From: Gammaproteobacteria bacterium
Lineage (GTDB): Bacteria > Pseudomonadota > Gammaproteobacteria > Eutrophobiales > Eutrophobiaceae
Direction of reading: 5' to 3'
Assembly (NCBI GenBank): GCA_022826885.1
Contig: JAJDUB010000053.1
Span: forward strand, 62,001-126,000
DNA length: 64,000 nt
A model generated the notes under the pieces. The model was not told the DNA's origin. It did no database searches and saw nothing but the letters and a program-made list of their open reading frames with translations. Both the position numbers and the translations under genes were made by a program. Positions within the stretch are counted from its first letter, which is position 1. Each line of letters opens with the position of its first letter. Of this stretch, positions 34,290-63,660 are shown piece by piece.

Positions 34290-34512
34290 GAATTACAGGA
34301 CACCCATATCGGAATTACAGGACACCCATATAAAGGAAATTACAGGACACCCATATAAACGGAATTACAGGACACCCATATAAATTTCGAATTCAGGACA
34401 CCCATATAAATTTGGTGGCTGTCCTGTAATTCCAATATGGGTGTCCCGTGTTTTACCTCCTGTAATTCCGTCCGTTACCTGGGTGTCCTGTAATTCCGCT
34501 GTAATTCCGTCG
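34290..34512. repeat. GGACACCCA repeat cluster 1 (5 direct, 2 inverted copies)
   Basis: Direct copies start at 34298, 34320, 34345, 34370 and 34396; inverted copies (TGGGTGTCC) start at 34438 and 34480. The local flank is GGAATTACA before each direct copy and TGTAATTCC after each inverted one, so the whole cluster can fold into a large cruciform. Bare TGTAATTCCG remnants lie at its right end. It fills the gap between ubiK (start 34166) and the promoter at 34544; I see no gene in this 437-base stretch. Confidence 0.95.
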
Positions 34513-35375: not shown

Positions 35376-36719
35376 ATGAAGCAATTCGGTGATTCAACCA
35401 ACGGAAAAACAATGCCGCGCAAAGCGGGGCGCATCTCCAATATAACCGGCATCCTGGCGGGACTGGCGGCATTGCTGCTGCCGCTCGGTGCCCGGGCAGA
35501 TGAATTGAGCGCGGGAGATACGGCCTGGATGCTGACTGCCACGGCCCTGGTGCTGTTCATGACGATACCGGGGCTCTCCCTTTTCTATGCCGGGATGGTC
35601 AGGAGCAAGAACGTCCTGTCGGTACTGATGCAGTGCTTCGCCATCACGTCGATGATGACCGTGCTCTGGGTGTTGTACGGTTACAGTATCGCGTTCGGCG
35701 GCGAAGGCCCCTACTGGGGCGGGCTGGACAAGATGTTCCTGGCGGGCGTCACGGTGGATTCCATGAGCGGCACCATCCCGGAATCCGTATTCATGACGTT
35801 CCAGATGACCTTTGCCATCATCACCCCGGCGCTGATCGTCGGCGCCTTCGCAGAACGCATGAAATTCAGCGCGGTGCTCCTGTTCATGGCGATCTGGCTC
35901 ACGGTGGTGTACGCCCCGGTGTGCCACTGGGTCTGGGGTGACGGCGGCTGGCTCGGTAACAAGGGTATCCTGGATTTTGCCGGCGGCACGGTTGTGCACA
36001 TCAACGCCGGCATGGCGGGACTGGTGTGCGCCCTGGTCCTGGGCAAGCGCAAGGGCTATCCGACCACTCCCATGATGCCCCACAACCTGACCTACACCGT
36101 GATCGGCGCCTCCATGCTCTGGGTGGGCTGGTTCGGTTTCAACGCCGGCAGTGAACTGGCTGCCGACGGGACCGCCGGCATGGCGATGGCGGTAACGCAG
36201 ATAGCCACCGCGTCCGCGGCGCTGGGCTGGATGATCTGCGAATGGGTCAACCACGGCAAGCCCAGCGTGCTGGGGATCGCGTCCGGGGCAGTGGGGGGGC
36301 TGGTCGCGATCACCCCGGCCTGCGGCTCCGTCGGACCCATGGGCGCCATCGTGATCGGTTTCGCCTCCGGCGTCGGCTGCTTCCTGGCGGCAGTTAAACT
36401 GAAACGCATGCTGGGCTATGACGATTCACTGGACGTGTTCGGCGTCCATGCCATCGGCGGTATCATCGGCGCCCTGCTGACGGGCGTGTTCTGCGCAGAA
36501 ACCCTGGGAGGCGCGGGGTTTGGCGTTGAAAGCGGCGGCATCGCCGCCCAGGTAGGCGTCCAGTTTACCGGCGTGATCGCGACGGTGATTTACACGGGCA
36601 TAGCCAGCTTCATCATTCTCAAGGTAGTGGACCTCGTGATCGGTTTGCGGGTTACGTCCGACGAGGAGCAGGAAGGGCTGGATATTGTCTTGCACGATGA
36701 ACGTGGCTATATTATATAG
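35376..36719 (+). CDS. amtB: Ammonium transporter (Amt family), first copy
   Basis: A 447-residue Amt channel. An N-terminal leader (ITGILAGLAALLLPLGARAD) precedes the first membrane segment. The conserved FQMTFAIITPALIVGAFAER contains the gate region. The pore histidines are in YAPVCHWVWGDGG and DVFGVHAIGGIIGAL. The C-terminus ends with LHDERGYII, which resembles the GlnK-regulated tail. The start follows AGGAG at a good distance. It is followed by glnK and a second amtB, so both transporters could be regulated by one PII protein. Confidence 0.95.
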   Translation: MKQFGDSTNGKTMPRKAGRISNITGILAGLAALLLPLGARADELSAGDTAWMLTATALVLFMTIPGLSLFYAGMVRSKNVLSVLMQCFAITSMMTVLWVLYGYSIAFGGEGPYWGGLDKMFLAGVTVDSMSGTIPESVFMTFQMTFAIITPALIVGAFAERMKFSAVLLFMAIWLTVVYAPVCHWVWGDGGWLGNKGILDFAGGTVVHINAGMAGLVCALVLGKRKGYPTTPMMPHNLTYTVIGASMLWVGWFGFNAGSELAADGTAGMAMAVTQIATASAALGWMICEWVNHGKPSVLGIASGAVGGLVAITPACGSVGPMGAIVIGFASGVGCFLAAVKLKRMLGYDDSLDVFGVHAIGGIIGALLTGVFCAETLGGAGFGVESGGIAAQVGVQFTGVIATVIYTGIASFIILKVVDLVIGLRVTSDEEQEGLDIVLHDERGYII

Positions 36720-37124: not shown

Positions 37125-38420
37125 ATGAAACACCTTAGATTATATTCCCTGGTCCTTCTCGCCGGGACGTTATTCCCCGCACTCTGCCTGGCCCAGGATA
37201 CGCCTGAGCTGAACGGCGCCAATACCGCCTGGATCCTGGTTTCGACGGCCCTCGTGCTGTTCATGACCTTGCCGGGTCTGGCCCTGTTCTATGCGGGGCT
37301 GGTGCGCGCCAAGAACGTCCTGTCCGTATTGATGCAGTGTTTTTCCATTGCCTGCCTGATGTCCATCCTGTGGCTGGTCGCAGGCTACGGGCTGGCGTTC
37401 GGCGATGGCGGCGGCATGAACCAGTTCGTCGGCATGGGCAAGTTCTTCCTCGACGGGGTCGGCTGGGACAGCATGAGCGGCGATATCCCGGAGACCGTGT
37501 TTTTCATGTTCCAGATGACGTTTGCCATCATCACGCCCGCGCTGATCGTAGGCGGCTTCGCGGAACGCATGAAATTCTCCGCGGTACTGTGGTTTTCCGT
37601 CCTGTGGCTGTTGCTGGTGTACGCCCCCGTGTGCCACTGGGTCTGGGGCGGCGGCTGGCTGGGCGACTTGGGATTCATGGACTTTGCCGGCGGCACGGTA
37701 GTCCATATCAATGCCGGCGTGGCCGCGATCGTCGCGGCGATTGTGCTGGGCAACCGCAAGGGTTTCCCCGGCACCGCGATGCCGCCCCATAACATGACCT
37801 TGTCCGTGGCCGGGGCCTCGATGCTGTGGGTAGGCTGGTTCGGCTTCAACGCGGGCAGCGCCCTGGCCGCCGACGGCAACGCCGGCATGGCCATGCTGGT
37901 CACGCACATCTCCGCGGCGGCAGGCTCCCTGGCCTGGGTCGCCTGCGAGTGGATCAAGCACGGCAAGCCCAGCGTGCTGGGTATCGTCACCGGCATGGTG
38001 GCGGGTCTCGGCACCATCACCCCGGCCTCGGGGTTCGTCGGCCCCCTGGGCGGTCAGCTGATCGGAATCTCGGCCGGTGTCGTCTGCTATTTCGCCACCC
38101 AGTACATCAAGCGCAGTCTCAAGATCGATGACTCCCTGGACGTCTTTCCGGTGCACGGAGTCGGCGGCGCGCTTGGTTGCCTGTTGACGGCAGTCTTTTT
38201 TGCCGGCAGCCTGGGCGGCCCGGCGGATGCAGGCTACGCCATGGGTTCGCAGTTCACGATCCAGGTAATAGGCGTGGTCGCAACGGTCCTGTGGTGCGGC
38301 ATACTCAGTTTTATCATCCTGAAGGTACTCGACGCCGTCATGGGATTGCGCGTCACCGCAGATGAAGAAACCGAAGGCCTCGACCTGGTATCCCACGACG
38401 AACGCGGCTATTCCCTGTAA
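37125..38420 (+). CDS. amtB: Ammonium transporter (Amt family), second copy
   Basis: A 431-residue Amt protein following glnK by 15 bases. The signal-like N-terminus (LVLLAGTLFPALCLA) precedes the first membrane helix. The core repeats the hallmarks of the first copy: FQMTFAIITPALIVGGFAER, CHWVWGGGWLGDLGFMDFAG, and the second histidine in DVFPVHGVGGALGCLLT. It ends LVSHDERGYSL. The two copies diverge throughout, so this is not a recent duplication. Confidence 0.94.
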   Translation: MKHLRLYSLVLLAGTLFPALCLAQDTPELNGANTAWILVSTALVLFMTLPGLALFYAGLVRAKNVLSVLMQCFSIACLMSILWLVAGYGLAFGDGGGMNQFVGMGKFFLDGVGWDSMSGDIPETVFFMFQMTFAIITPALIVGGFAERMKFSAVLWFSVLWLLLVYAPVCHWVWGGGWLGDLGFMDFAGGTVVHINAGVAAIVAAIVLGNRKGFPGTAMPPHNMTLSVAGASMLWVGWFGFNAGSALAADGNAGMAMLVTHISAAAGSLAWVACEWIKHGKPSVLGIVTGMVAGLGTITPASGFVGPLGGQLIGISAGVVCYFATQYIKRSLKIDDSLDVFPVHGVGGALGCLLTAVFFAGSLGGPADAGYAMGSQFTIQVIGVVATVLWCGILSFIILKVLDAVMGLRVTADEETEGLDLVSHDERGYSL

Positions 38421-38433
38421 ATACGTAAAAACC

Positions 38434-38476
38434 GGGGTCAGAGTAAGAAATTCGCCAGAATTTTTACTCTGACCCC
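38434..38476. repeat. GGGGTCAGAGTAA-type palindromic repeat (hairpin)
   Basis: GGGGTCAGAGTAA and TTACTCTGACCCC flank a short loop (ends 38434-38453 and 38458-38476). The same element, with 16-base perfect arms, is present at 40965-41034, and a degenerate one occurs near 25599-25624. Its recurrence as a mirror-image pair in gaps suggests a REP-like element family. It also lies just after amtB and could stop transcription, although without a proper T-run. Confidence 0.8.
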
Positions 38477-38506
38477 ATATTTCCGACATCCCCATCCCCT
38501 CCCGTC

Positions 38507-38670
38507 ATTCCTGCGCATGCAGGAATCCGTATTTCCAATACAGGACACCCATGAAAATTATATGGGCAGTTCTAATACAGGACACCCATAAATTTCAGGA
38601 CACCCATATAATTTTCATGGGTGTCCTGAAATTTCTCCTGAAATTTATGGGTGTCCTGAAATTATCCTGC
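38507..38670. repeat. GGACACCCA repeat cluster 2 (3 direct, 2 inverted) with an ATTCCTG-type palindrome
   Basis: Direct copies start at 38543, 38580 and 38598; inverted copies start at 38618 and 38648. Local flanks are AATTTCA/TGAAATT. To the left, 38507-38526 is a palindrome ATTCCTGCGCATGCAGGAAT. Copies run to within 20 bases of the aroE start, so no ribosome-binding site is visible between cluster and gene. Confidence 0.92.
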
Positions 38671-41596: not shown

Positions 41597-41814
41597 AAAT
41601 GAGGACACCCATAAATTCTCAAACGAGTCTCAAACGAGAGTCTCAAACGAGGACACCCATAAATCCGGTTAAATGAGGGTTAAATGAGGACACCCACAAT
41701 TCATGGGTGTCCCGGAATGTGTCCGGAATGCATGGGTGTCCCGAAATGCACATGGGTGTCCCGGAATGCATGGGTGTCCCGGAATGCACCCACAATGCAT
41801 GGGTGTCCTGGAAT
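41597..41814. repeat. GGACACCCA repeat cluster 3 (3 direct, 5 inverted)
   Basis: Direct copies start at 41603, 41651 and 41688; inverted copies start at 41704, 41733, 41753, 41771 and 41800. Local flanks are CTCAAACGA/TTAAATGA before the direct copies and GGAATGCA around the inverted ones, with nested duplications such as AAACGAG repeated three times. The cluster fills the gap between the dctQ start and the rsmA stop. Confidence 0.93.
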
Positions 41815-44867: not shown

Positions 44868-47233
44868 TGCAGCGGCAGGCTGTCGCCGTACCCCGGTATG
44901 GCCTGGTTCAGGAGATCAACAGTCCTTTGACCGATGCTTCCCAGCCCCTTCAGCTCCAGTTGCAGGAAGAAACCGGTATTGAAATCGCCTTCCAGGTTGG
45001 ACAGGAAGCGCCGGCCGACGGCCTTGATGGCGAAACAGCAACCCTCGTATTCCATCCCGAAGAACAGGTCCAGTGTGCGGCCCTCGGACACCGCGTAGTT
45101 CCAGCGGCCCACGGCATTCAGCCTGTCTGTCAGGGGCCAACTGAACGACACGTCGGATTGTTCGATGTCCGTCGGGGTGCGCCGTATCTGGCCGGTCTCG
45201 GCCCGCCTTACCCGGTAAGCCAGGTTGACGACCTTGCTGCCCTCCGGGTTGTATTGCGCGGTGAGCGCCATTTTCCGGGTGAGACGGTCGTTGATGTCCC
45301 AGTAAATCTCCGCGCCCAGGGTCAGATCGTCACGCACGGAGGCGTCGGCCTCGATGATCAGCGGTGAGAGCAGGTCGTTTTCCGGTATGCCGATATCCAC
45401 CAGTTCACCGTGCGCGCCCAGGATCTGCCTGATGACGTCCTGGTCTTCCAGGTAAAATGACTGCGCCACCTGCAGCGAAGCGAGCTGTTTGCCCGAATCC
45501 CGGCTGATCAGCCGGCTGCCCAGGGCCAGGGTGACCTGGTTCGTGTCGCCGATGCGGTCGTAGCCGCTGAAACGGTTTTCCCGGAACAGGGCGTTATAGT
45601 CCAGGTTGAAAACGGACGAATCGAACACCGGCAGGTCGTTCTGGTCCTCGTACGGCACGTACAGGTAGAACAGCCGCGGTTCCAGCGTGTGCTGGAAGTC
45701 GCGGTCCCGCATCCGGAAATCCCGCTCCAGGAACACGCCGCTGTCCACGCTGACGATGGGCAGGGTCCGGTTCGGACTCTTTGTGAAAGGCCCCTGCCGG
45801 TCCAGTTCGTACTGGGTGAAGCGCACCCCGACCTTGGGCACCAGGAAAGCCGCCTGGGTGCGTATCGGGTAGCTGATGGACGGGTACAGGTCGGCGCGGA
45901 ACCCGGTCACGTCCACCGTGACCCCGGCCTCGCCGGTCCGGTCGAAATAGGTGAAATCCGTCAGCAGGTTGAGGTTGATTTTCTTGTTGCCGCTCAGGGG
46001 GCGGTACCTGAATTGCAGGCGCGGCAGGTTTTTATAGGGCCTGGAAGTCACCGCGATACTCTGGTCGACAATCTGGTAGCTGTGCAGGCGGCCCAGCACG
46101 CTCCAGTTGCGCCCGCGGTAGGTCAGGTCCGCCCGGCGCGGCAGGAAGCGGGTAGAGGAAATGGCCAGGTCGGTGCCGAAATCCTCCAGGTATTCCGGGT
46201 CCGAGGCCCGGTTGTAATTCACGTACAGTTTGCCCCGGCCGAGGAAGGACTGGTTGAGTTCGATATTGATCATGCTGCGGTCGCGGTCGCCGAAGCCGAC
46301 GTCGCCGGGCAGGTATTCAAGACTCACCTGGCCCTCGCCTCCCGTGACCAGGTAGCGGTATTCGAGCATGCCCATGACGCCGCTGTTGGCCAGCACCCTG
46401 GGCGTGATGGTCGCGTCCATGTTGGGCGAGATATTCCAGTAATAGGGCAACCGGGTCTCAAACCCGCCGTGGCTGTTCTTGCCGATGCCCGGCGCGAGAA
46501 AGCCGGATTTGCGGTCCCTGCTCAGGGGAAAGGTGAAGTAGGGCGCATAGAATACCGGGATGTCCTTGATCTTGAGGACGATGTTCCTGCCCGAACCGCG
46601 GTCCGTGTTATGGTCGAGCGTCAGTTCCCGCGCGCTGATGCGCCAGAAATTCTCCTCGATGCCGCCGCCGTTCTCCGGCGCGCAGGTGGTGAACGTCATG
46701 CCTTCCCCGGAAGTGAGGGTCCCGGGGTCGATGAACAGTTCATCGGCCCTGCCCCGGGCGTCGCTGTCTGGCAGGTAGTATTCGGCGCCGGACACGGTTG
46801 CCGTGCTGTCCTCAATGTCGATCCGGGCGCCCTCGCCGGCCAGGAACAGCGATTCCTCCCAGAACTTCACGTCGCCGGACAGGTCGACGATACTCTCCGG
46901 GTCGTTGTACACCGCGTCGTCCGCGCGCGCCTGCCATGTGTCCGTGGACATCTCGACGGACCCCGTCAGGTGCGAGATACCCTGTTCGGTGAGGTCGATG
47001 CTGTCGGCATTGACGTAGGTATCGCCTTCCTCCCTCTCGACATCGACCACCGGCCGCTCAGGCACCTGGAACACGATGGGGCAGAACGGCCCGCCGGCAA
47101 CCGGCGTCTCCTGCGCCGGGGCCGCCCCGGTCCACAGCAGGGCCACTAATATAATGTGCCGCCACGGGCGGCAAGTTGTCTTACTGGATTCCCGCCTGCG
47201 CGGGAATGACGCCCGAAAAGACAGGACACCCAT
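44864..47233 (-). CDS. lptD: LPS-assembly protein LptD
   Basis: LptD is the outer-membrane beta-barrel that inserts LPS with LptE. The C-terminal barrel runs from about residue 250 to the end. The N-terminal periplasmic domain contains VNADSIDLTEQGISHLTGSV and GSVEMSTDTWQARADDAVYN, a typical LptA-like repeat. The start is uncertain: the signal (WRHIILVALLWTGAAPAQ) is in frame with ATG 47233, whose ATG is the centre of a TGGGTGTCC repeat. ATG 47284 has an AGGA ribosome site but adds a repeat-encoded segment. Length is about 789 residues with the first choice, 806 with the second. Confidence 0.94.
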   Translation of the reverse strand: MGVLSFRASFPRRRESSKTTCRPWRHIILVALLWTGAAPAQETPVAGGPFCPIVFQVPERPVVDVEREEGDTYVNADSIDLTEQGISHLTGSVEMSTDTWQARADDAVYNDPESIVDLSGDVKFWEESLFLAGEGARIDIEDSTATVSGAEYYLPDSDARGRADELFIDPGTLTSGEGMTFTTCAPENGGGIEENFWRISARELTLDHNTDRGSGRNIVLKIKDIPVFYAPYFTFPLSRDRKSGFLAPGIGKNSHGGFETRLPYYWNISPNMDATITPRVLANSGVMGMLEYRYLVTGGEGQVSLEYLPGDVGFGDRDRSMINIELNQSFLGRGKLYVNYNRASDPEYLEDFGTDLAISSTRFLPRRADLTYRGRNWSVLGRLHSYQIVDQSIAVTSRPYKNLPRLQFRYRPLSGNKKINLNLLTDFTYFDRTGEAGVTVDVTGFRADLYPSISYPIRTQAAFLVPKVGVRFTQYELDRQGPFTKSPNRTLPIVSVDSGVFLERDFRMRDRDFQHTLEPRLFYLYVPYEDQNDLPVFDSSVFNLDYNALFRENRFSGYDRIGDTNQVTLALGSRLISRDSGKQLASLQVAQSFYLEDQDVIRQILGAHGELVDIGIPENDLLSPLIIEADASVRDDLTLGAEIYWDINDRLTRKMALTAQYNPEGSKVVNLAYRVRRAETGQIRRTPTDIEQSDVSFSWPLTDRLNAVGRWNYAVSEGRTLDLFFGMEYEGCCFAIKAVGRRFLSNLEGDFNTGFFLQLELKGLGSIGQRTVDLLNQAIPGYGDSLPLQ

Positions 47234-47308
47234 ATAATTTTGGTGGGTGTCCTGTCTTTTATATGGGTGTCTTGTAAAAGGCATCGTCATTCCTGCGAAT
47301 GCAGGAAT
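47188..47308. repeat. GGACACCCA repeat cluster 4 inside the lptD leader, flanked by two ATTCC-type palindromes
   Basis: One direct copy starts at 47224, an inverted copy at 47244, and a variant inverted copy (TGGGTGTCT) at 47264. They are flanked by the palindromes ATTCCCGCCTGCGCGGGAAT (47188-47207) and ATTCCTGCGAATGCAGGAAT (47289-47308). The first fits the form ATTCCC-N8-GGGAAT, as in the neisserial dRS3 element. The whole composite lies at, and probably within, the 5' end of the lptD frame. Confidence 0.88.
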
Positions 47309-49059: not shown

Positions 49060-49312
49060 AATCCGGGACACCCATAAATCACAAATCCGGGACACCCACA
49101 AATTACGTCGCAAGATCGCTCCAACTACCCCGACTATATGGGGGCGCGCAAATCGGGGACGCGCAAATCGGGGACACCCATAAATTATGCAAATTCGGGA
49201 CACCCATAAATTACGTCACAACATCGCTCCAACTACCCCGACTATATGGGTGTCCCAATTTTCTCTTCCCAAGTTTCTCTGAAAAAGAAATTATGGGTGT
49301 CCTGAACTTTTC
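49060..49312. repeat. GGACACCCA repeat cluster 5 (4 direct, 2 inverted) with two 43-bp direct repeats
   Basis: Direct copies start at 49066, 49090, 49172 and 49198; inverted copies start at 49247 and 49294. A 43-base block (AAATTACGTCGCAAGATCGC... to the GGG of TATATGGG) at 49100-49143 is repeated at 49208-49250 with two mismatches. The cluster fills the 322-base gap between the divergent mrp and metG; I see no other element in it. No Shine-Dalgarno is apparent before metG. Confidence 0.93.
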
Positions 49313-49339: not shown

Positions 49340-51523
49340 ATGACGGAACCACGGCGTAAAATCTTTGTCACGAGCGCATTGCCCTATGCGAATGCGTCGA
49401 TCCATATCGGCCACCTGCTGGAGGCGATCCAGACCGATATCTGGGTGCGCTTCCAGAAGCTGCGCGGCCACGACTGCCTGTACATCTGCGCGGACGACGC
49501 CCACGGCACGCCCATCATGCTGAGCGCAGACAGCCAGGGCATTACCCCGGAACAGTTGATCGACCGCATCCATGCCGAACACGAACGCGACTACGCCGGC
49601 TTCGGGGTCGGTTTCGACAACTTCCATACCACCCATTCCGGGGAAAACCGGGAGTTCGCGGAGAACATCTACGCCCGCCTCGACGCCGCAGGCCACATCA
49701 AGCGCCGCACCATCACGCAGTTCTACGACCCGGTAAAGGAAATGTTCCTGCCGGACCGGTTCATCCGCGGCGAATGCCCGTTCTGCGGCGCACAGGACCA
49801 GTACGGCGACAGTTGCGAGTCCTGCAACCGCACCTATACGCCCACGGACCTGGTCAACCCGGTATCGTCCATATCCGGGGCGACGCCGGTGGAAAAGGAA
49901 TCCGAGCATTACTTTTTCGATCTGCCTGCGTTCGAGGCCGTATTGCGCGACTGGGTCGGCGCCGGGCACCTGCAGCCGGAGGTCGCCAACAAGCTGGACG
50001 AATGGTTCGACGCAGGGTTGAGGGAATGGGACATCTCCAGGGACGCGCCGTATTTCGGTTTCGAGATCCCCGGCGCGCCGGGCAAGTATTTCTACGTGTG
50101 GGTGGACGCCCCCATGGGCTATTTCGCCAGCCTGAAGAACCTTCTGGATCGGCAGGGCAGGGACGTGGAGGAGTACATCGGCGCCGGCAGCAGCGCCGAG
50201 ATGTACCACTTCATCGGCAAGGACATCATGTACTTCCATACCCTGTTCTGGCCGGCCCTGCTGCACGGCAGCGGCCACCGCCTGCCCGACAACGTGTTCG
50301 TGCATGGCTTCCTCACCGCCAACGGCCAGAAAATGTCCAAGTCCCGGGGCACCTTCATCAATGCCCGCACCTACCTGGAGCACCTGGACCCGGAGTACCT
50401 GCGCTATTACTTCGCCGCCAAGTCGGGCAGCGGCGTGGATGACATCGACCTCAACCTGGAGGATTTCCGCCAGCGCGTGAACGCCGACCTGGTGGGCAAG
50501 GTGGTGAACGTCGCCAGCCGCTGCGCCGGGTTCATCCACAAACGCTTCGGCGGGAAGCTGGCCGCGGCCGTGCACGACCAGGCGCTGCTGCAGGAATTCA
50601 CCGGGGCCGCCGAGGCCATCGCGGCAGACTATGAAGCCCGGGAATACGCCCGCGCCATGCGCGGGATCATGGCCCTGGCTGACCGGGCGAACCAGTATAT
50701 CGACCGGCACAAGCCCTGGGAGATGGCCAGGTCCGACCCCGGCTCGGCCGAACTGCAACAGGTATGCTCCCTGGGCCTGAACCTGTTCCGCATCCTTATC
50801 ATCTACCTGAAACCGGTGCTGCCCGGCCTGACCCGGCGCGCCGAGGAGTTCCTCGGTGTCGAACCGCTGGCCTGGGACGGCCTGGACGCGCCGCTGCTGG
50901 ACCACCCGGTACAGAAATTCAAGCCACTGCTCACCCGGGTGGAACAGGCGCGCATCGACGCCGTAGTCGAGGCCAGCAAGGAAACCCTGGGAGCCGGGAA
51001 CGGCGGCGGGGAAAATGAGGACGGGGAAAATGAGGACACCCATGTTGTAAATACAGGCGGCAAAAGACAGGACACCCATAAAAAAGACAGGACACCCATA
51101 GAAATTGCAGGACACCCAAGCGAAAACGAAAACGAGGACACCCATGCCGTGAATGCAGATGCCGTCAACAAACACCTGGTTGAAGACCCCGTTGCCCCGG
51201 AGATTTCCTTCGATGAATTCACAAGAACAGACCTGCGCGTGGCGACAATCACCCACGCCTCCTACGTGGAAGGAGCGGACAAGCTACTGCAACTGACCCT
51301 GGACCTGGGCGGCGAGACCAGGAACGTATTCGCCGGCATCAGGAGCGCCTACCGGCCCGAAGACCTCATCGGCAGGCAGACGGTAATGGTGGCCAACCTG
51401 GCGCCCCGCAAAATGCGCTTCGGCGTCTCCGAAGGCATGGTCCTGGCCGCCGGCCCCGGCGGCAAGGACATCTACCTGCTCAGCCCCGACACAGGCGCCG
51501 CCCCAGGCATGAGAGTCAAGTAA
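49340..51523 (+). CDS. metG: Methionyl-tRNA synthetase with a repeat-expanded linker
   Basis: MetRS charges tRNA-Met. The 727-residue protein has the HIGH motif (IHIGHLLEA, residue 17), a zinc-binding domain ([17 protein letters not shown] near residue 145) and KMSKS ([10 protein letters not shown] near 332). It also has the C-terminal tRNA-binding OB domain ([20 protein letters not shown] near 620). Homologues of about 675 residues are shorter in the linker: residues about 553-613 contain five GGACACCCA words coding for EDTH, QDTH, RTPI, GHPS and EDTH, in three reading frames without a stop. The catalytic and anticodon-binding parts look intact, so the enzyme should work. Confidence 0.95.
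51020..51146 (+). repeat. GGACACCCA repeat cluster 6, inside the metG coding sequence (5 direct copies)
   Basis: Copies start at 51034, 51070, 51090, 51110 and 51136, all in the same direction, in the linker between the catalytic core and the tRNA-binding domain. Local flanks are AAAGACA and AAAACGA. All three frames of GGACACCCAT lack stops. The length from 51020 to 51146 is 127 bases and the frame is kept overall. Confidence 0.93.
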
Positions 51524-51580
51524 AAGAGAGGACACCCAAGCAAAAGAGAGGACACCCAAGTAAATTACAGGACACCCATA
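51524..51580. repeat. GGACACCCA repeat cluster 7 upstream of rnfA (3 direct copies)
   Basis: Copies start at 51530, 51550 and 51570, each preceded by AAAGAGA or ATTACA. The cluster starts right after the metG stop and ends seven bases before the rnfA ATG; no other ribosome-binding site is visible, so the leader consists of the repeat itself. Confidence 0.92.
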
Positions 51581-52679: not shown

Positions 52680-52796
52680 TTCTAAAGCAGGACACCCATA
52701 AATTCAGGGAGTCCCTGAACCAAGTCCCTGAACCAGGACACCCACAAATTTCGAGCGTCAACAATTTTATGATGCAACTTATGGGTGTCCTGCAAA
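52680..52796. repeat. GGACACCCA repeat cluster 8 (2 direct, 1 inverted), left breakpoint of the rnf split
   Basis: Direct copies start at 52690 and 52736; an inverted copy starts at 52782. The first part also repeats the rnfB tail CACTTTCTAAA. The cluster lies between rnfB and the RAYT gene. Confidence 0.92.
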
Positions 52797-52870
52797 TTAA
52801 TTTAATTGACATCGAACTGCGTGCCGGTATAATCAGTATTCTGGGAATAACCTACTATTTGGAGGGATCC

Positions 52871-53836
52871 ATGACCACATCTCGAAGTCAACAGATCTGC
52901 CTGACTGAAACCTGTTATTATCACTGTATTTCCCGTTGTGTTCGCCGTGCATTCCTGTGCGGTTATGACGAATATTCCGGGAAAAGCTATCAACATCGTC
53001 GAGACTGGGTGGAACAACAACTGCTCAGACAATCCCGGGCATTTTGCATCGATGTGGCGGGTTACGCCGTAATGTCAAATCATTTTCATGTGATTATCAG
53101 AGTTAATCCAGAACTGGCTGCTTCCCTCTCTGCTGAAGCGATACTTGACCGCTGGCAACAGCTATACCGCCTTGATCCGCTTATGGCCCGCTTCAAAGAA
53201 GGAGACGTGCTAACAGATGATGAAAAGCATATTGTCGATAATGAGATTGTTAGGATGCGTGATGTCCTGATGAGCATTAGCCGTTTCATGGGATATCTGA
53301 ATGAACGTATCGCCCGCAGAGCTAATGCAGAGGATGGCTGCAAGGGCCGATTTTGGGAAGGACGCTTCCGCTCACAGGCCTTACTTGATGAAGTCGCTTT
53401 GCTGCAATGCTTGGCCTATGTGGATTTAAACCCTGTTCGAGCCGGTATCAGCCAAAACCCATTGCAATCAGAGTACACCTCCATTAAACGACGACTGGAC
53501 GGTAACAGCTCCGACCTGCTGGAATTCAAAACGGATAAACCGGGAAAGATGTCGGAGAATTACAACGAACTTCCGTTTCATATTAAAGACTATCTGGAGA
53601 TACTTGAGTGGTCGGGCTGTATTATTCAGGGGGATAAACGTGAAGCTATCACTGAAAACGCACCCGCCTTGATTGAGAAATTCGTTATAGAGCCGACTCG
53701 TTGGCATGCAGCGATGAAGCCTCCTCTACCCTGGCATCAGAAGGCGTTAGGGTCAGCCAGAAATATAAAGAAGTACTGTGAAGCAATTGGCCAACGTTGG
53801 CTGCGTCAGGCCGATTATGCGTTAAATTATACTTAA
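52871..53836 (+). CDS. REP-associated tyrosine transposase (RAYT, IS200/Y1_Tnp-like)
   Basis: A 321-residue single-strand transposase of the RAYT group. The HUH metal motif is in MSNHFHVIIRV near residue 78, and the catalytic tyrosine lies in LAYVDLNPVRAGI near residue 180. The start is ATG 52871 with GGAGGG five bases upstream; the frame extends further left but the extra part is not family-like. RAYTs are single-copy genes that act on REP palindromes. This one is flanked on both sides by GGACACCCA clusters (52680-52796 and 54010-54092), making it the obvious candidate for their mobilisation. It interrupts the rnf operon. Confidence 0.88.
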   Translation: MTTSRSQQICLTETCYYHCISRCVRRAFLCGYDEYSGKSYQHRRDWVEQQLLRQSRAFCIDVAGYAVMSNHFHVIIRVNPELAASLSAEAILDRWQQLYRLDPLMARFKEGDVLTDDEKHIVDNEIVRMRDVLMSISRFMGYLNERIARRANAEDGCKGRFWEGRFRSQALLDEVALLQCLAYVDLNPVRAGISQNPLQSEYTSIKRRLDGNSSDLLEFKTDKPGKMSENYNELPFHIKDYLEILEWSGCIIQGDKREAITENAPALIEKFVIEPTRWHAAMKPPLPWHQKALGSARNIKKYCEAIGQRWLRQADYALNYT

Positions 53837-54009
53837 TCCCTCAAGAGCTACCTTACATCGCTTCCTGGCAGGTGGGTTGCCCCTGTTTGGAATCTCGTTC
53901 TGGAGCATATAAAACGCTCGCAGATGCTTGTGTGTTTCATAACATTTTTCTCCCAAAAGTCTGAGGAAATATTACTCATCACGTTGTCTTGCAGAGTTTT
54001 TGTGAAAAT

Positions 54010-54092
54010 CGAAAATTCGGGGAAAATTCGGGGACACCCAATAGAGAAAATTCGGGGACACCCAATAGAATAATTATGGGTGTCCTGCAATT
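54010..54092. repeat. GGACACCCA repeat cluster 9 (2 direct, 1 inverted) downstream of RAYT
   Basis: Direct copies start at 54032 and 54056 with the local flank GAAAATTCGG; an inverted copy starts at 54077. It lies in the 338-base gap between the RAYT stop and the rnfG stop, in which I see no gene. Confidence 0.92.
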
Positions 54093-54174
54093 TACTTAAC
54101 CCTCTAACTCTTTTCATGCCACGTCCTTCCCGGCGGGCTTCCATGTAAATCCCGAAGGGACAGCTTATTTCCGG

Positions 54175-54783
54175 TTAATACAGAGTATCCCGGTTGGCGC
54201 GGTACTGGTTCAGGGTAAATTCCACGGCGCGGATGACGGCGCGCTGGCTGGATGTAGCGCCGCTGATGTGGTCGAAATTGCCGCCGTCTTTCTCCACTGC
54301 CCAAGCGTCCTTGGGCGTGTTATCCAGAGAGCGGCCATTGAAACCGAGTATCCAGGGCGTATTGTCCTGGTGCACCTGGTCGCCCAGGCCCGGTGTTTCC
54401 CGGTGTTCCAGCACCCGCACCCCGGCAAGCGTGCCGTCGTACCGGACGCCAATTGCCAGTTCCATCATGCCGTTGTAGCCCCTGGCCCGGACGGGACTGA
54501 ATATCAGGCCCACGGGCTCTGCGCCGCGCCGGGCGCGGAACACGTCGGTCGCCGCCTCCGTTCCGAAATAGGTCGGCAGGTCGATACTGATCCTGTCCGC
54601 GGGCAGGTCATTATCGTACTCCAGGGGCAGAACCTGCGCGCCGATCTCCAGGATCGGCAGGTTGCGGTTGCGCGTGATGGTGTCCTGGAAGTAATTCCCC
54701 AGGGCATAAATTCCCAACACCGCAGCGAAGCAGATGAACAGCAGCGGCAAGGTATCCAACAGTAGGTTTTTCCTGGTAGCCAT
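54175..54783 (-). CDS. rnfG: Rnf complex subunit RnfG (covalent FMN)
   Basis: A 202-residue protein with one N-terminal membrane helix (LPLLFICFAAVLGIYALG) and a periplasmic domain. The flavinylation motif is SGATSS near residue 175, with the FMN-linked threonine. Its start overlaps the rnfD stop by one base. The order on this strand is rnfC-rnfD-rnfG. rnfE, which normally follows, is absent: after the stop come a repeat cluster and the RAYT gene. Confidence 0.92.
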   Translation of the reverse strand: MATRKNLLLDTLPLLFICFAAVLGIYALGNYFQDTITRNRNLPILEIGAQVLPLEYDNDLPADRISIDLPTYFGTEAATDVFRARRGAEPVGLIFSPVRARGYNGMMELAIGVRYDGTLAGVRVLEHRETPGLGDQVHQDNTPWILGFNGRSLDNTPKDAWAVEKDGGNFDHISGATSSQRAVIRAVEFTLNQYRANRDTLY

Positions 54784-55799
54784 TATTGCTCTCCGAACAC
54801 CTTGGGGCGGGTCAGCAGGTCAATCAACGGCACGAAAACATTGGCAAGCAGCACTGCGAACGCCACCCCGTCCGGATATGCCCCCCACCCGCGCAGCAGG
54901 ATGACGAGCGCCCCGATCAAAACGCCGTAGATGAGTCTCCCGGGCCAGGTCGTTGACGCGGTAACCGGGTCCGTAGCGATAAAGAAGGCGCACAGCATCG
55001 TACCGCCGCTGAACAGGTGGAACAACGGCGAAGCATGGACTTCCGGGTCGTACAGGTAAAACGGCAGGCTGACGAGGACAACGCCGGCCAGGACCGCAAC
55101 CGGGATGTGCCACTTTATTACGCCGCGCGCCAGCAGGTAAATGCCGCCCAGAAGGTAAAGAAAGTTAATCCACTCCCAGCCGGCCCCGGCAACATATCCG
55201 AATATCATGGGTGTCCCGGTTTCCGACTTGATTTCCGATACCATCTCCATCAGTTCCAGGCGGTTTTTCAGTTCATCCAGGGCTGTCGCGCCGCTCAGCA
55301 TGTCCGGCGCCGTGGTGCCCATGGGGAAGATGCTGTCCAGCGAGGCGCCGATGCCGTGGGCCGGCAGGGCCGGCCAGGTATTCATCTGCACCGGGAAACA
55401 GGCCAGTACGAACACGTATCCCGCCATGGCCGGGTTGAACAGGTTGCAGCCGATACCGCCGAAAGCATGTTTGGCGATGATGACGGCAAACGCGATCCCG
55501 CACAGGCAGACCCACCAGGGCGCCAGCGGGGTGATGCTGACCGCGAACAGCAAGGCGGTCACGGTTACGCTGCCGTCCCGCAGGAACAGCGCCGGGTCGC
55601 GGCCGCGCAGCCTGAGGACGGCGAACTCCAGCAGCAGGGCGAAACAGACGGCCAGCGCACACTGGATCAATACGCCGGGACCGAACAGCCAGGCGTAGCA
55701 GATCAGGCCGGGGACCAGCGCAATGCACACGTCCGCCATGACTGTGCCGACGCTCCGGCCGTCATGCCAGTGGGGCGAACTGCCTGTCCTGTCAATCAT
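54783..55799 (-). CDS. rnfD: Rnf complex subunit RnfD (covalent FMN)
   Basis: A 338-residue membrane protein with about ten hydrophobic segments. The flavin-attachment region is near residue 184 (LSGATALDELK), after the FPMGTTAPD segment. The start is ATG 55799, overlapping the rnfC stop by eight bases; the frame is open further upstream but only within rnfC. A single GGACACCCA word lies in the coding sequence (complement of 55208-55216, giving GTPM), possibly by chance or a solitary insertion. Confidence 0.92.
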   Translation of the reverse strand: MIDRTGSSPHWHDGRSVGTVMADVCIALVPGLICYAWLFGPGVLIQCALAVCFALLLEFAVLRLRGRDPALFLRDGSVTVTALLFAVSITPLAPWWVCLCGIAFAVIIAKHAFGGIGCNLFNPAMAGYVFVLACFPVQMNTWPALPAHGIGASLDSIFPMGTTAPDMLSGATALDELKNRLELMEMVSEIKSETGTPMIFGYVAGAGWEWINFLYLLGGIYLLARGVIKWHIPVAVLAGVVLVSLPFYLYDPEVHASPLFHLFSGGTMLCAFFIATDPVTASTTWPGRLIYGVLIGALVILLRGWGAYPDGVAFAVLLANVFVPLIDLLTRPKVFGEQ

Positions 55800-57321
55800 C
55801 TGTATCTGTCTGCCCGGCGTCCCCGTCCCCGGGAGACTGCTGCCGGCGTTTTGCCCGGGTCCGGACCAGCGCCTCCTCCACGTAGGCCTTTTTCTCCGCC
55901 CTGGTGTCCTGTTCCGGGCCGGGCGCCCGCCGTTGCCTGCTGGTATCAGCTTCAATCCTCAGGCGATCGGTTTTCCTGTTAAAACGCTGCCTGGCCGCCG
56001 CCGCTTCATTGCCCTGTTGCTCTTCAAGGACGACCTGCGATTTGGCCCGGCGGTAATAGTGCACGAGGGGGATCCGGCTGGGGCAGACGTAGGCGCAACA
56101 GCCGCATTCTATACAATCGAACAGGCGATATTCCCGGAGCCGGTCGGAATCCCCGGCTGCGGCAAACCAGTACAGTTGCTGGGGCAACAGCAGTTCCGGG
56201 CACACGTCCGCGCAATCGCCGCAACGGATACAGGGCATCTCCGGCCGGGCCGGTGCGTTCTCCTCGATGATGATGCAGTTGGTGGTCTTGATCACGGGCA
56301 TGTTGGGACTGGTGACGCGCAGGCCCATCATGGGGCCGCCGATGATCACCTTGTTGTCCTCACTGTGCCGGTAGCCGCAGGTGGCGAGGCAGTCCTCGAC
56401 CGGCGTGCCGATAAGCACCTGCAGGTTGACGGGGTTGTCCACCTTCCCCGTCACCGTGATGTAGCGCGAGACGATGGGCTCCCCGCGCGTCACGGCGCGG
56501 TACACCGCGGCGGCCGTGGCCACGTTGTGGATGACTATGCCGATGTGAATCGGCAACCCCCCGCTGGGGACGTCCTTGCCGGTCAATGTCCTGATGAGCT
56601 GTTTCTCCCCTCCCGCGGGGTAACGGACAGGCACCCTGACCAGTTCCAGGTCGTCATCAACCAGACCGGCCAGGGCGTCGTAAGCCAGATCCATGTCGTC
56701 CTCTACCGCGATGACGCAGTGCCTGGCCTGCACCGCGTGGCGTATCATGCGGGCCCCGGAGACGACGTAGGAGGCTTTTTCCTGGATCAGCCGGTCGTCG
56801 CAGGTGATATGCGGTTCGCATTCGACGCCGTTGATGATCAGGGTATCGACCGCGTTTTCCACGCCCTCCATCAGTTTGACGTGGGCCGGGAAACCGGCGC
56901 CGCCCAGGCCGGCTATGCCGCAATCCCGGATCAGCTCCTGCAATTTCGCCGGTTCGGCGCGGTCGTATTCCTCGGTGGGTTCGATATCGAACCAGGCGTC
57001 ATTGCCGTCCGGTTCCAGCACGATACACGGCGCCTTGCTTATCGTCGGATTGGGGACCGGGTAATCGCCGATATCCGTAATCGTCCCGGAGGTGCTGGCA
57101 TGGACGGGGACGCTCACATAACCATCGGGCCGGGCGATGATCTGGCCTTTCAGCACCTTGTCGCCGATTTTGACCGCCGGCACGGCAGGCAGGCCGATAT
57201 GCTGCTGCAGAGGCAGGAACATGCGCGCCGGCAAGGGATGCAGGATGGACATCTTCTGGTCCGTAATCTCCTTGTGCGGCTCCAGCAGCAGCCCGCCCGG
57301 AAATTCATGTAATTCACGCAT
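55792..57321 (-). CDS. rnfC: Rnf complex subunit RnfC
   Basis: A 509-residue soluble subunit with an N-terminal glycine-rich barrel (GDKVLKGQIIARPDGYVSVP), the NADH/FMN-binding domain similar to NuoF (GLGGAGFPAHVKL), and two 4Fe-4S motifs: CIRCGDCADVCPELLLP near residue 365 and CIECGCCAYVCPSRIPL near 404. The start is ATG 57321; the frame extends 13 codons upstream into the repeat word. It is transcribed away from cysG, with cluster 10 between. The long charged C-terminal tail is partly coding for rnfD in another frame. Confidence 0.93.
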   Translation of the reverse strand: MRELHEFPGGLLLEPHKEITDQKMSILHPLPARMFLPLQQHIGLPAVPAVKIGDKVLKGQIIARPDGYVSVPVHASTSGTITDIGDYPVPNPTISKAPCIVLEPDGNDAWFDIEPTEEYDRAEPAKLQELIRDCGIAGLGGAGFPAHVKLMEGVENAVDTLIINGVECEPHITCDDRLIQEKASYVVSGARMIRHAVQARHCVIAVEDDMDLAYDALAGLVDDDLELVRVPVRYPAGGEKQLIRTLTGKDVPSGGLPIHIGIVIHNVATAAAVYRAVTRGEPIVSRYITVTGKVDNPVNLQVLIGTPVEDCLATCGYRHSEDNKVIIGGPMMGLRVTSPNMPVIKTTNCIIIEENAPARPEMPCIRCGDCADVCPELLLPQQLYWFAAAGDSDRLREYRLFDCIECGCCAYVCPSRIPLVHYYRRAKSQVVLEEQQGNEAAAARQRFNRKTDRLRIEADTSRQRRAPGPEQDTRAEKKAYVEEALVRTRAKRRQQSPGDGDAGQTDTDD

Positions 57322-57344
57322 GCCTGAATTGTATAGGAGATATG

Positions 57345-57484
57345 AAATGAGGACACCCAAATAAATTACAGCAATAAATTACAGGACACCCAATAAAAAG
57401 AGATGGGTGTCCTGTAAAAGACATGGGTGTCCTGTTATTGCGCCGCCGCTGTTATTGCGCTGGTAAAAGAGATGGGTGTCCTGG
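57345..57484. repeat. GGACACCCA repeat cluster 10 (2 direct, 3 inverted), right breakpoint of the rnf inversion
   Basis: Direct copies start at 57351 and 57384; inverted copies start at 57404, 57424 and 57473. The local flank varies between ATTACA, AGAGAT and ACAT. The cluster lies between the divergent rnfC and cysG starts, at the opposite end of the inverted rnfCDG block from clusters 8 and 9. Confidence 0.92.
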
Positions 57485-58910: not shown

Positions 58911-58945
58911 ACAGGACACCCATGTAATTTATATGGGTGTCCTGT
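58911..58945. repeat. GGACACCCA repeat cluster 11: palindromic pair between convergent cysG and msrB
   Basis: One direct copy (58914) and one inverted copy (58934) form a 13-base perfect stem ACAGGACACCCAT / ATGGGTGTCCTGT around a seven-base loop. It lies between two convergent stops and is the simplest, BIME-like form of the repeat. It could act as a bidirectional stop but has no T-runs. Confidence 0.9.
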
Positions 58946-59375: not shown

Positions 59376-59508
59376 ATTTCAGGACACCCACACAATCAAA
59401 TTATGGGTGTCCTGATTTACGGGTGTCAGGACACCCACAGAATCAAATTATGGGTGTCCTGAATTATGCCCTGAATTATGGGTGTCCTGAATTACGCTGA
59501 ATTACGCC
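59376..59508. repeat. GGACACCCA repeat cluster 12 (2 direct, 3 inverted)
   Basis: Direct copies start at 59382 and 59429; inverted copies start at 59404, 59451 and 59479, with one overlapping partial at about 59421. The local flank is AATCAAATTA. The cluster lies between the mltF stop and the msrB start; its left end is 21 bases from the msrB start, whose own ribosome site (GGAG) is intact. Confidence 0.92.
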
Positions 59509-61927: not shown

Positions 61928-62158
61928 ATTTCAGGACACCCATAATTTGGACACACAGTTTCAGGACACCCACCTAAAACACAGGACACCCATGTAACTT
62001 TGTTGGGTGTCCTGTTTTACTGTCCCGGATAATTTCGTAATTTCGGGACACCCATTAAATTATTTTATGGGTGTCCTGAATTAAGATGCCCAACAAAGTT
62101 ACATGGGTGTCCTGAATTAAGGTGTCCTGAATTAAGATGATTTCATGGGTGTCCCGAT
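61928..62158. repeat. GGACACCCA repeat cluster 13 (4 direct, 4 inverted)
   Basis: Direct copies start at 61934, 61964, 61984 and 62046; inverted copies start at 62004, 62068, 62104 and 62146. Local flanks are TTTCA, AACACA and ATTAAGATG. The cluster fills the gap between the divergent egtD and the gene at 62183; no other gene is seen in it. Confidence 0.92.
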
Positions 62159-63430: not shown

Positions 63431-63660
63431 AAACAGGACACCCATAAAACTTTCAGGACACCCGACAAAACTCTATGGGTGTCCTGAAACTTTGAGGACA
63501 CCCAACAAAATTATATGGGTGTCCTGTAATTACACTCTCCCTCCTGTAATCAACACCCAACAAAATTACATGGGTGTCCTCTAATTCACATGGGTGTCCT
63601 CAAATTCACATGTCCTCAAATTCACATGCCCAACAAAATTACATGGGTGTCCCGTAATTA
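63431..63660. repeat. GGACACCCA repeat cluster 14 (2-3 direct, 5 inverted)
   Basis: Direct copies start at 63436, 63456 (variant GGACACCCG) and 63496; inverted copies start at 63476, 63516, 63571, 63591 and 63644. Local flanks are CAAAATTA and TAATTACA. It occupies most of the 362-base gap; the promoter of the last gene lies just after it. Confidence 0.92.

Follow-up and report, generated by a model that had tools for sequence, protein, structure and literature searches.

The 64-kb stretch of DNA analysed here, hereafter called the window, encodes a REP-associated tyrosine transposase (RAYT) that probably has the short word GGACACCCA as its cognate terminal repeat, and that would both spread units bounded by this word and build local arrays of it. 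In the best reading, the whole constitutes a TIRtron/REPIN-like system with an unusual word, which is neither GTAG-type nor palindromic. As far as the literature searched shows, this would be the first cognate repeat for subclass 2.3 of the TnpA-Y1 transposases, i.e., a testable substrate for a widespread group of HUH enzymes with none on record.

The RAYT gene and the words around it

The RAYT gene (52871..53836, + strand) is intact, encodes 321 aa and is the sole representative of its clade in this genome. A predicted sigma-70 promoter, TTGACA-16-TATAAT, matching the consensus at 12/12 positions (52806..52833, + strand), ends 37 bp upstream of the start codon. The initial annotation had described a RAYT with an HFH version of the HUH motif and with YVDLNP, and both were recovered, namely as N70-H-F-H73 and as the motif containing the predicted catalytic Y183, together with FWE at residues 161-163 and a Pfam Y1_Tnp match of 24.4 bits, narrowly above the cut-off of 23; the NCBIfam model for REP-associated tyrosine transposases gave 43 bits, under its cut-off of 80. 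Where the window protein reads NHFH, FWEG and YVDLNP, the 93 proteins of its clade carry NHYH in 72 cases, FWEG in 68 and YVDLNP in 90. On the basis of length and motifs, the protein is placed in TnpA-Y1 subclass 2.3. Its sequence profile found no match among solved structures and a comparison of folds was thus needed. The closest structure to the AlphaFold model (pLDDT 85.9) is 4ER8, the E. coli RAYT, with a Z of 12.9 against 7.6 for the next entry; 4ER8 is aligned over 160/165 residues within residues 1-290 of the model, which retains extra segments. Thg1-like guanylyltransferases and viral Rep proteins, also matched by fold at lower Z, were discarded as sharing a common core fold with no functional meaning. 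With a dN/dS of 0.09-0.15 relative to congeners, the RAYT is judged from codon comparison to be under purifying selection.

The word GGACACCCA is present in 71 copies in the window, where shuffled sequences hold 0.72 on average and 3 at the most, which rules out chance (about 0.7 expected) as the source of its abundance. All of these copies except one (70/71) lie between 34.3 and 63.7 kb. The genome totals 126 words, as compared with 29 occurrences of the reversed control pattern, and 72/126 are found within 30 kb of sequence surrounding the RAYT (C54:96.3-126.3 kb); as such, the word was rejected as a genome-wide REP in this genome, its distribution being mostly regional. Isolated inverted pairs of words also occur on other contigs, the spacing of inverted pairs is mostly 20 bp, and the words are mostly intergenic. 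The position preceding the word (-1) is an A in 55/71 window words, and the majority of them read AGGACACC, GGGGACAC being found at 54030 and 54054 in the cluster to the right of the RAYT. The suggestion that the word differs from textbook REPs holds, the GTAG/GTGG foot being absent from the 71 aligned window words and their flanks. A literature search for the word within repeats returned only primer noise and unrelated papers.

The RAYT lies, as had been proposed, amid word clusters on both sides that include inverted copies, i.e., a left cluster at 52690..52790 (52690+, 52736+ and 52782-), which folds into a long hairpin (z -5.5), and a right cluster at 54032..54085 (54032+, 54056+ and 54077-). 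Upstream of this unit, word positions delineate clusters of seven words at 34298..34488, five at 38543..38656 with an inverted pair at 20 bp spacing, and eight at 41603..41808, then an inverted pair, also at 20 bp spacing, at 47224..47252, six words at 49066..49302 separating metG from the divergent gene upstream of it, and three direct words with a 20-bp period at 51530..51578 (+ strand) between metG and rnfA. Downstream are found five words at 57351..57481, an inverted pair extended to a stem of about 16 bp at 58914..58942, five words comprising two inverted pairs at 22 bp at 59382..59487, eight words at 61934..62154 and seven at 63436..63652. Elsewhere in the window, two adjacent genes in opposite orientation (35376-36719 and 37170-38495) share about 70% DNA identity.

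The word at RAYT loci and across genomes

Linkage was assessed at 93 loci of clade RAYTs outside the genus, from many families of Gammaproteobacteria, 83 being counted upstream and 82 downstream. GACANCCA is found upstream and pointing inward (>) in 57/83 loci, and reversed in 4/83; downstream, it is inverted (<) in 46/82 and reversed in 8/82. When no word was chosen beforehand, the commonest oriented 7-mer was GACACCC on the upstream side (46/83) and TGGGTGT on the downstream side (32/82). The distances are tight, the upstream word lying at a median of 86 bp from the RAYT start and the downstream one at 198 bp from the stop. Around six RAYTs of another type, taken as controls, 0-1 words were counted within 1.5 kb. 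With such fixed orientation and distance, the word behaves as a terminal inverted repeat of the RAYT unit. This linkage, together with the orientation and spacing, is regarded as established. Of the RAYT-REP pairing put forward in the initial annotation, the link is supported and the term REP is somewhat inexact, considering the lack of a GTAG tag, the lack of a hairpin in the single word and the TIR-like placement.

In the tree of the clade, the word is found throughout, with one subclade exhibiting GACAGCCA instead. About one third of clade RAYTs have no upstream word, which counts against the favoured explanation, some of them having variant words or sitting on long branches, and 24/103 examined loci have no word on either side. 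Orthologues flanked by unrelated repeats had been named in advance as contrary evidence, and this condition was checked with the outcome just given. Three further loci may be mentioned in their own right. Around a clade RAYT without the word in Thalassolituus marinus (L019), 15 occurrences of GCTCCTACA/TGTAGGAGC were counted in 10.9 kb, and this sequence resembles a GTAG-type repeat. In a Planctomycetaceae locus (L022) whose RAYT is 46% identical, GCCACCCA/TGGGTGGC occurs five times in the RAYT flanks and is possibly a diverged word. A subclass-2.1-like RAYT of 283 aa (L211:3642-4493) is preceded by AAGGGGTCAG immediately before TTGACA, the same layout of word then promoter as in subclass 2.3 units.

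At the level of genomes, clade RAYT matches were obtained in 33/193 relatives (some of them weak) and in 52/369 sampled Gammaproteobacteria genomes, two samples that partly overlap. Inverted word pairs were found in 8/193 and 8/369 genomes, and the co-occurrence that the initial annotation had suggested looking for was observed in 7/8 of them in each sample (Fisher p 1e-6 and 5e-6, respectively). The same annotation held that genomes with many words and no such RAYT would speak against the pairing; pairs without a detected RAYT are limited to two genomes, neither of which was retained as a counter-example. In G287, a truncated clade RAYT adjoins one word pair. G010 is a fragmented MAG, 77% complete, whose contigs cover the rnf region piecemeal, and the absence of a RAYT is therefore not scorable there.

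Such a distribution bears on the view in which the word would be a regulatory site of the host, e.g., an operator, a terminator or a recombination site, among which the RAYT would merely happen to lie. The mostly intergenic location of the words is compatible with it, as is the promoter-like TTGACA frequently seen in RAYT units immediately internal to the left word. On the contrary, word pairs are nearly confined to genomes with a clade RAYT, at RAYT genes from many unrelated families the words form inverted repeats at the ends, some words lie in frame inside metG, and congeners lacking a RAYT in the region have no words in it. In RAYT-free genomes, no conserved group of orthologues with the word in front of them was seen. 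A regulatory origin is thus considered very improbable.

Dispersed units, two-word elements and local arrays

Congeneric genomes exhibit the word in two dispersed forms. G007 carries four RAYT units, mostly 94-97% identical in DNA, at unrelated sites, where homology stops at the words on both sides; modules of about 160-220 bp at the right end are repeated word to word. G009 carries 31 dispersed word pairs with a 34-bp spacing, a conserved body of about 54 bp and unrelated flanks, the element reading AATTTGGGACACCCATRAATT...TTAATTYATGGGTGTCCCAAATT without a GTAG/GTGG foot. The four whole-unit copies and the dispersed two-word element are likewise regarded as established. The majority of words in G007 are far from its RAYT copies, so that local concentration is not universal, a further point against the favoured explanation. 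In the same genome, seven direct words in a single orientation, repeated every 33 bp or so, were observed at G007:C1:2474404-2474629 (in L203).

As a single strand, the G009 element folds with a z of -7.0 and the half element does not fold; inverted word pairs in general reach z -4.0 to -8.2, while for single or direct units the folding is not stronger than in shuffled sequences (z -0.5 and +0.9). A single-unit hairpin, TGGG-ACA-CCCA in G009, was considered but is weak and is lost in the present genome, which has A instead of G at -1. That the single word does not fold, in contrast to known Y1 substrates, also counts against the favoured explanation. It weighs as well on the supposition of an ordinary GTAG-type REP/RAYT system, from subclass 2.2 or 2.5, with divergent repeats. 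While the enzyme has the fold of the E. coli TnpA-REP (Z 12.9 with 4ER8) and the inverted pairs form REPIN-like hairpins, such a system is scarcely credible when the GTAG/GTGG foot is missing, the single unit has no stable hairpin, the protein has the motifs and length of subclass 2.3, and the word sits TIR-like at both ends of the RAYT unit.

The rnf-metG region, syntenic in G005, G006, G008, G009 and G007, provides a contrast within the genus. In G008, where a RAYT was not detected, the region contains zero exact words, rnfA-B-C-D-G is uninterrupted, and 39 bp only are present at the site of the RAYT in G005; in G007, the RAYTs are at other sites and the rnf region is essentially word-free. 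That presence or absence of the word tracks the RAYT within the genus is regarded as established. In the window, the segment RAYT-rnfG-rnfD-rnfC (52797..57350) is inverted relative to G005, G009, G007 and G008, with both breakpoints in word clusters, the outer one being the cluster at 57351..57481; the inversion is common to this genome and G006 and splits the rnf operon. The metG ORF (49340-51523) likewise contains five words (51034..51144, + strand), which fall in the linker preceding the C-terminal domain and preserve the frame; G006 has four there and they are absent from G008, G009, G007 and other family members. As such, the region offers a natural case in which the repeats of a transposase pile up around its own gene, enter the linker of a tRNA synthetase in frame, and flank an inversion splitting an operon.

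Regarding the growth of arrays, words within one cluster have a common private prefix. For terminal words outside the genus, the 8-mer just outside the word recurs within 45 nt in 26/112 cases, the one just inside in 7/112, and random positions in 1.35/112; the corresponding values for window words are 23/71, 4/71 and 0.6/71. This duplication of the outside flank is regarded as established. The array periods are short and regular, from 8 to 24 nt and often 20 bp. The pattern is consistent with the DNA being broken or nicked next to the word and then copied anew locally, via the RAYT 3'-OH or via host slippage, and the latter may partly account for local growth. In G007, inside recurrence is common (18/52 words); the outside/inside asymmetry is therefore not general, which again counts against the favoured explanation.

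Host processes could even be thought sufficient, i.e., words having begun as RAYT unit ends, the arrays here would have arisen passively, through slippage during replication and template switches at hairpins, the RAYT no longer taking part. The short regular periods and the strong folding of inverted pairs are in line with this, and so is the finding that word clusters occupy orthologous places in G000, G006, G009 and G010, where copy number is the main difference; cluster places are common to the species, with turnover affecting the number of words and their flanking prefixes, as slippage could also yield, and this too is counted against the favoured explanation. Passive amplification nonetheless appears unlikely in view of the 31 uniform 54-bp elements dispersed at unrelated sites in G009, the isolated pairs on other contigs of the present genome, the lack of words in the region in congeners without a RAYT there, and the purifying selection acting on the RAYT.

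In the favoured explanation, namely a subclass 2.3 RAYT with GGACACCCA as terminal repeat, the autonomous unit would consist of a word, about 85 bp with the promoter, the RAYT gene, about 200 bp and an inverted word. The RAYT would recognise the word on single-stranded DNA and cleave adjacent to it; the whole unit would be moved occasionally, and short RAYT-less units of two inverted words, REPIN-like, would spread more often. Words would multiply near the RAYT, with the DNA just outside the word being duplicated, giving rise to private local arrays. We infer in this scheme the binding, the position of cleavage, the strand polarity, the mobilisation by the RAYT, and the RAYT rather than host slippage as the maker of arrays. 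It is plausible given the known chemistry of TnpA-REP, where cleavage leaves a 5'-phosphotyrosine and a free 3'-OH able to prime synthesis or attack (PMC8266576). A bolder proposal, put forward tentatively as one possibility, is that the substrate of this RAYT branch is a short linear word and not a hairpin; the cut would prime several rounds of copying of the adjacent 8-24 nt of host DNA, outside the word, so that private arrays would grow in cis instead of, or besides, transposition, and would later enter coding linkers (metG) and give rise to inversions (rnf).

Relation to known RAYT and Y1 systems

Proteins of TnpA-Y1 subclass 2.3 have been described with the HuH motif NHYH (NHY/FH), the W motif WE, the Y motif YVDLNP, a median length of about 325 aa, core inserts and a long C-terminal tail, in several copies per genome in some hosts, and neither automatic nor manual searches gave REP-like sequences for them (Quentin et al., 2018, PMC6006769). 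The window RAYT agrees in length (321 vs. a median of 325 aa) and in motifs (NHFH, FWE and YVDLNP) but differs from that survey, devoid of REP-like repeats, by the cognate repeat proposed here. With the IS200/IS605 family (IS608, ISDra2), it has in common a Y1 HUH transposase for which a single-strand mechanism is expected by homology; the window RAYT nonetheless has YVDLNP instead of Y---Q as well as additional domains, and the ends are short inverted words that do not fold singly instead of subterminal hairpins.

Compared with the REPIN/BIME elements associated with the E. coli TnpA-REP (4ER8), the protein fold is alike and so are the dispersed hairpin elements made of inverted unit pairs, whereas the present units lack the GTAG foot and do not form a hairpin singly, and their arrays are concentrated around the RAYT. 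Repeat concentration near tnpA-REP has been reported for Marinomonas REPtrons (PMC8266576) and the local concentration seen here is thus not new in kind. In TIRYTs/TIRtrons, a RAYT gene is bounded by GGGGWSAS terminal inverted repeats, copies of which also occur at other sites, either alone, as dimers or in clusters (Di Nocera et al., 2013, PMC3733652). Here as well, the RAYT is flanked by terminal inverted repeats with dispersed copies in the genome. The motif GGGGWSAS matches GGGGACAC, present in the right cluster of the window, although position -1 is A in 55/71 window words. While the TIRYTs of Di Nocera et al. were assigned to subclasses 2.1 (mostly), 2.2 and 2.5, and not 2.3 (PMC6006769), the present RAYT is placed in subclass 2.3 and most of its words are AGGACACC and not GGGGACAC. 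The partnership between RAYTs and repeats would thereby be extended beyond GTAG hairpins, linking the GGGGWSAS TIR-type and the REP-type systems.
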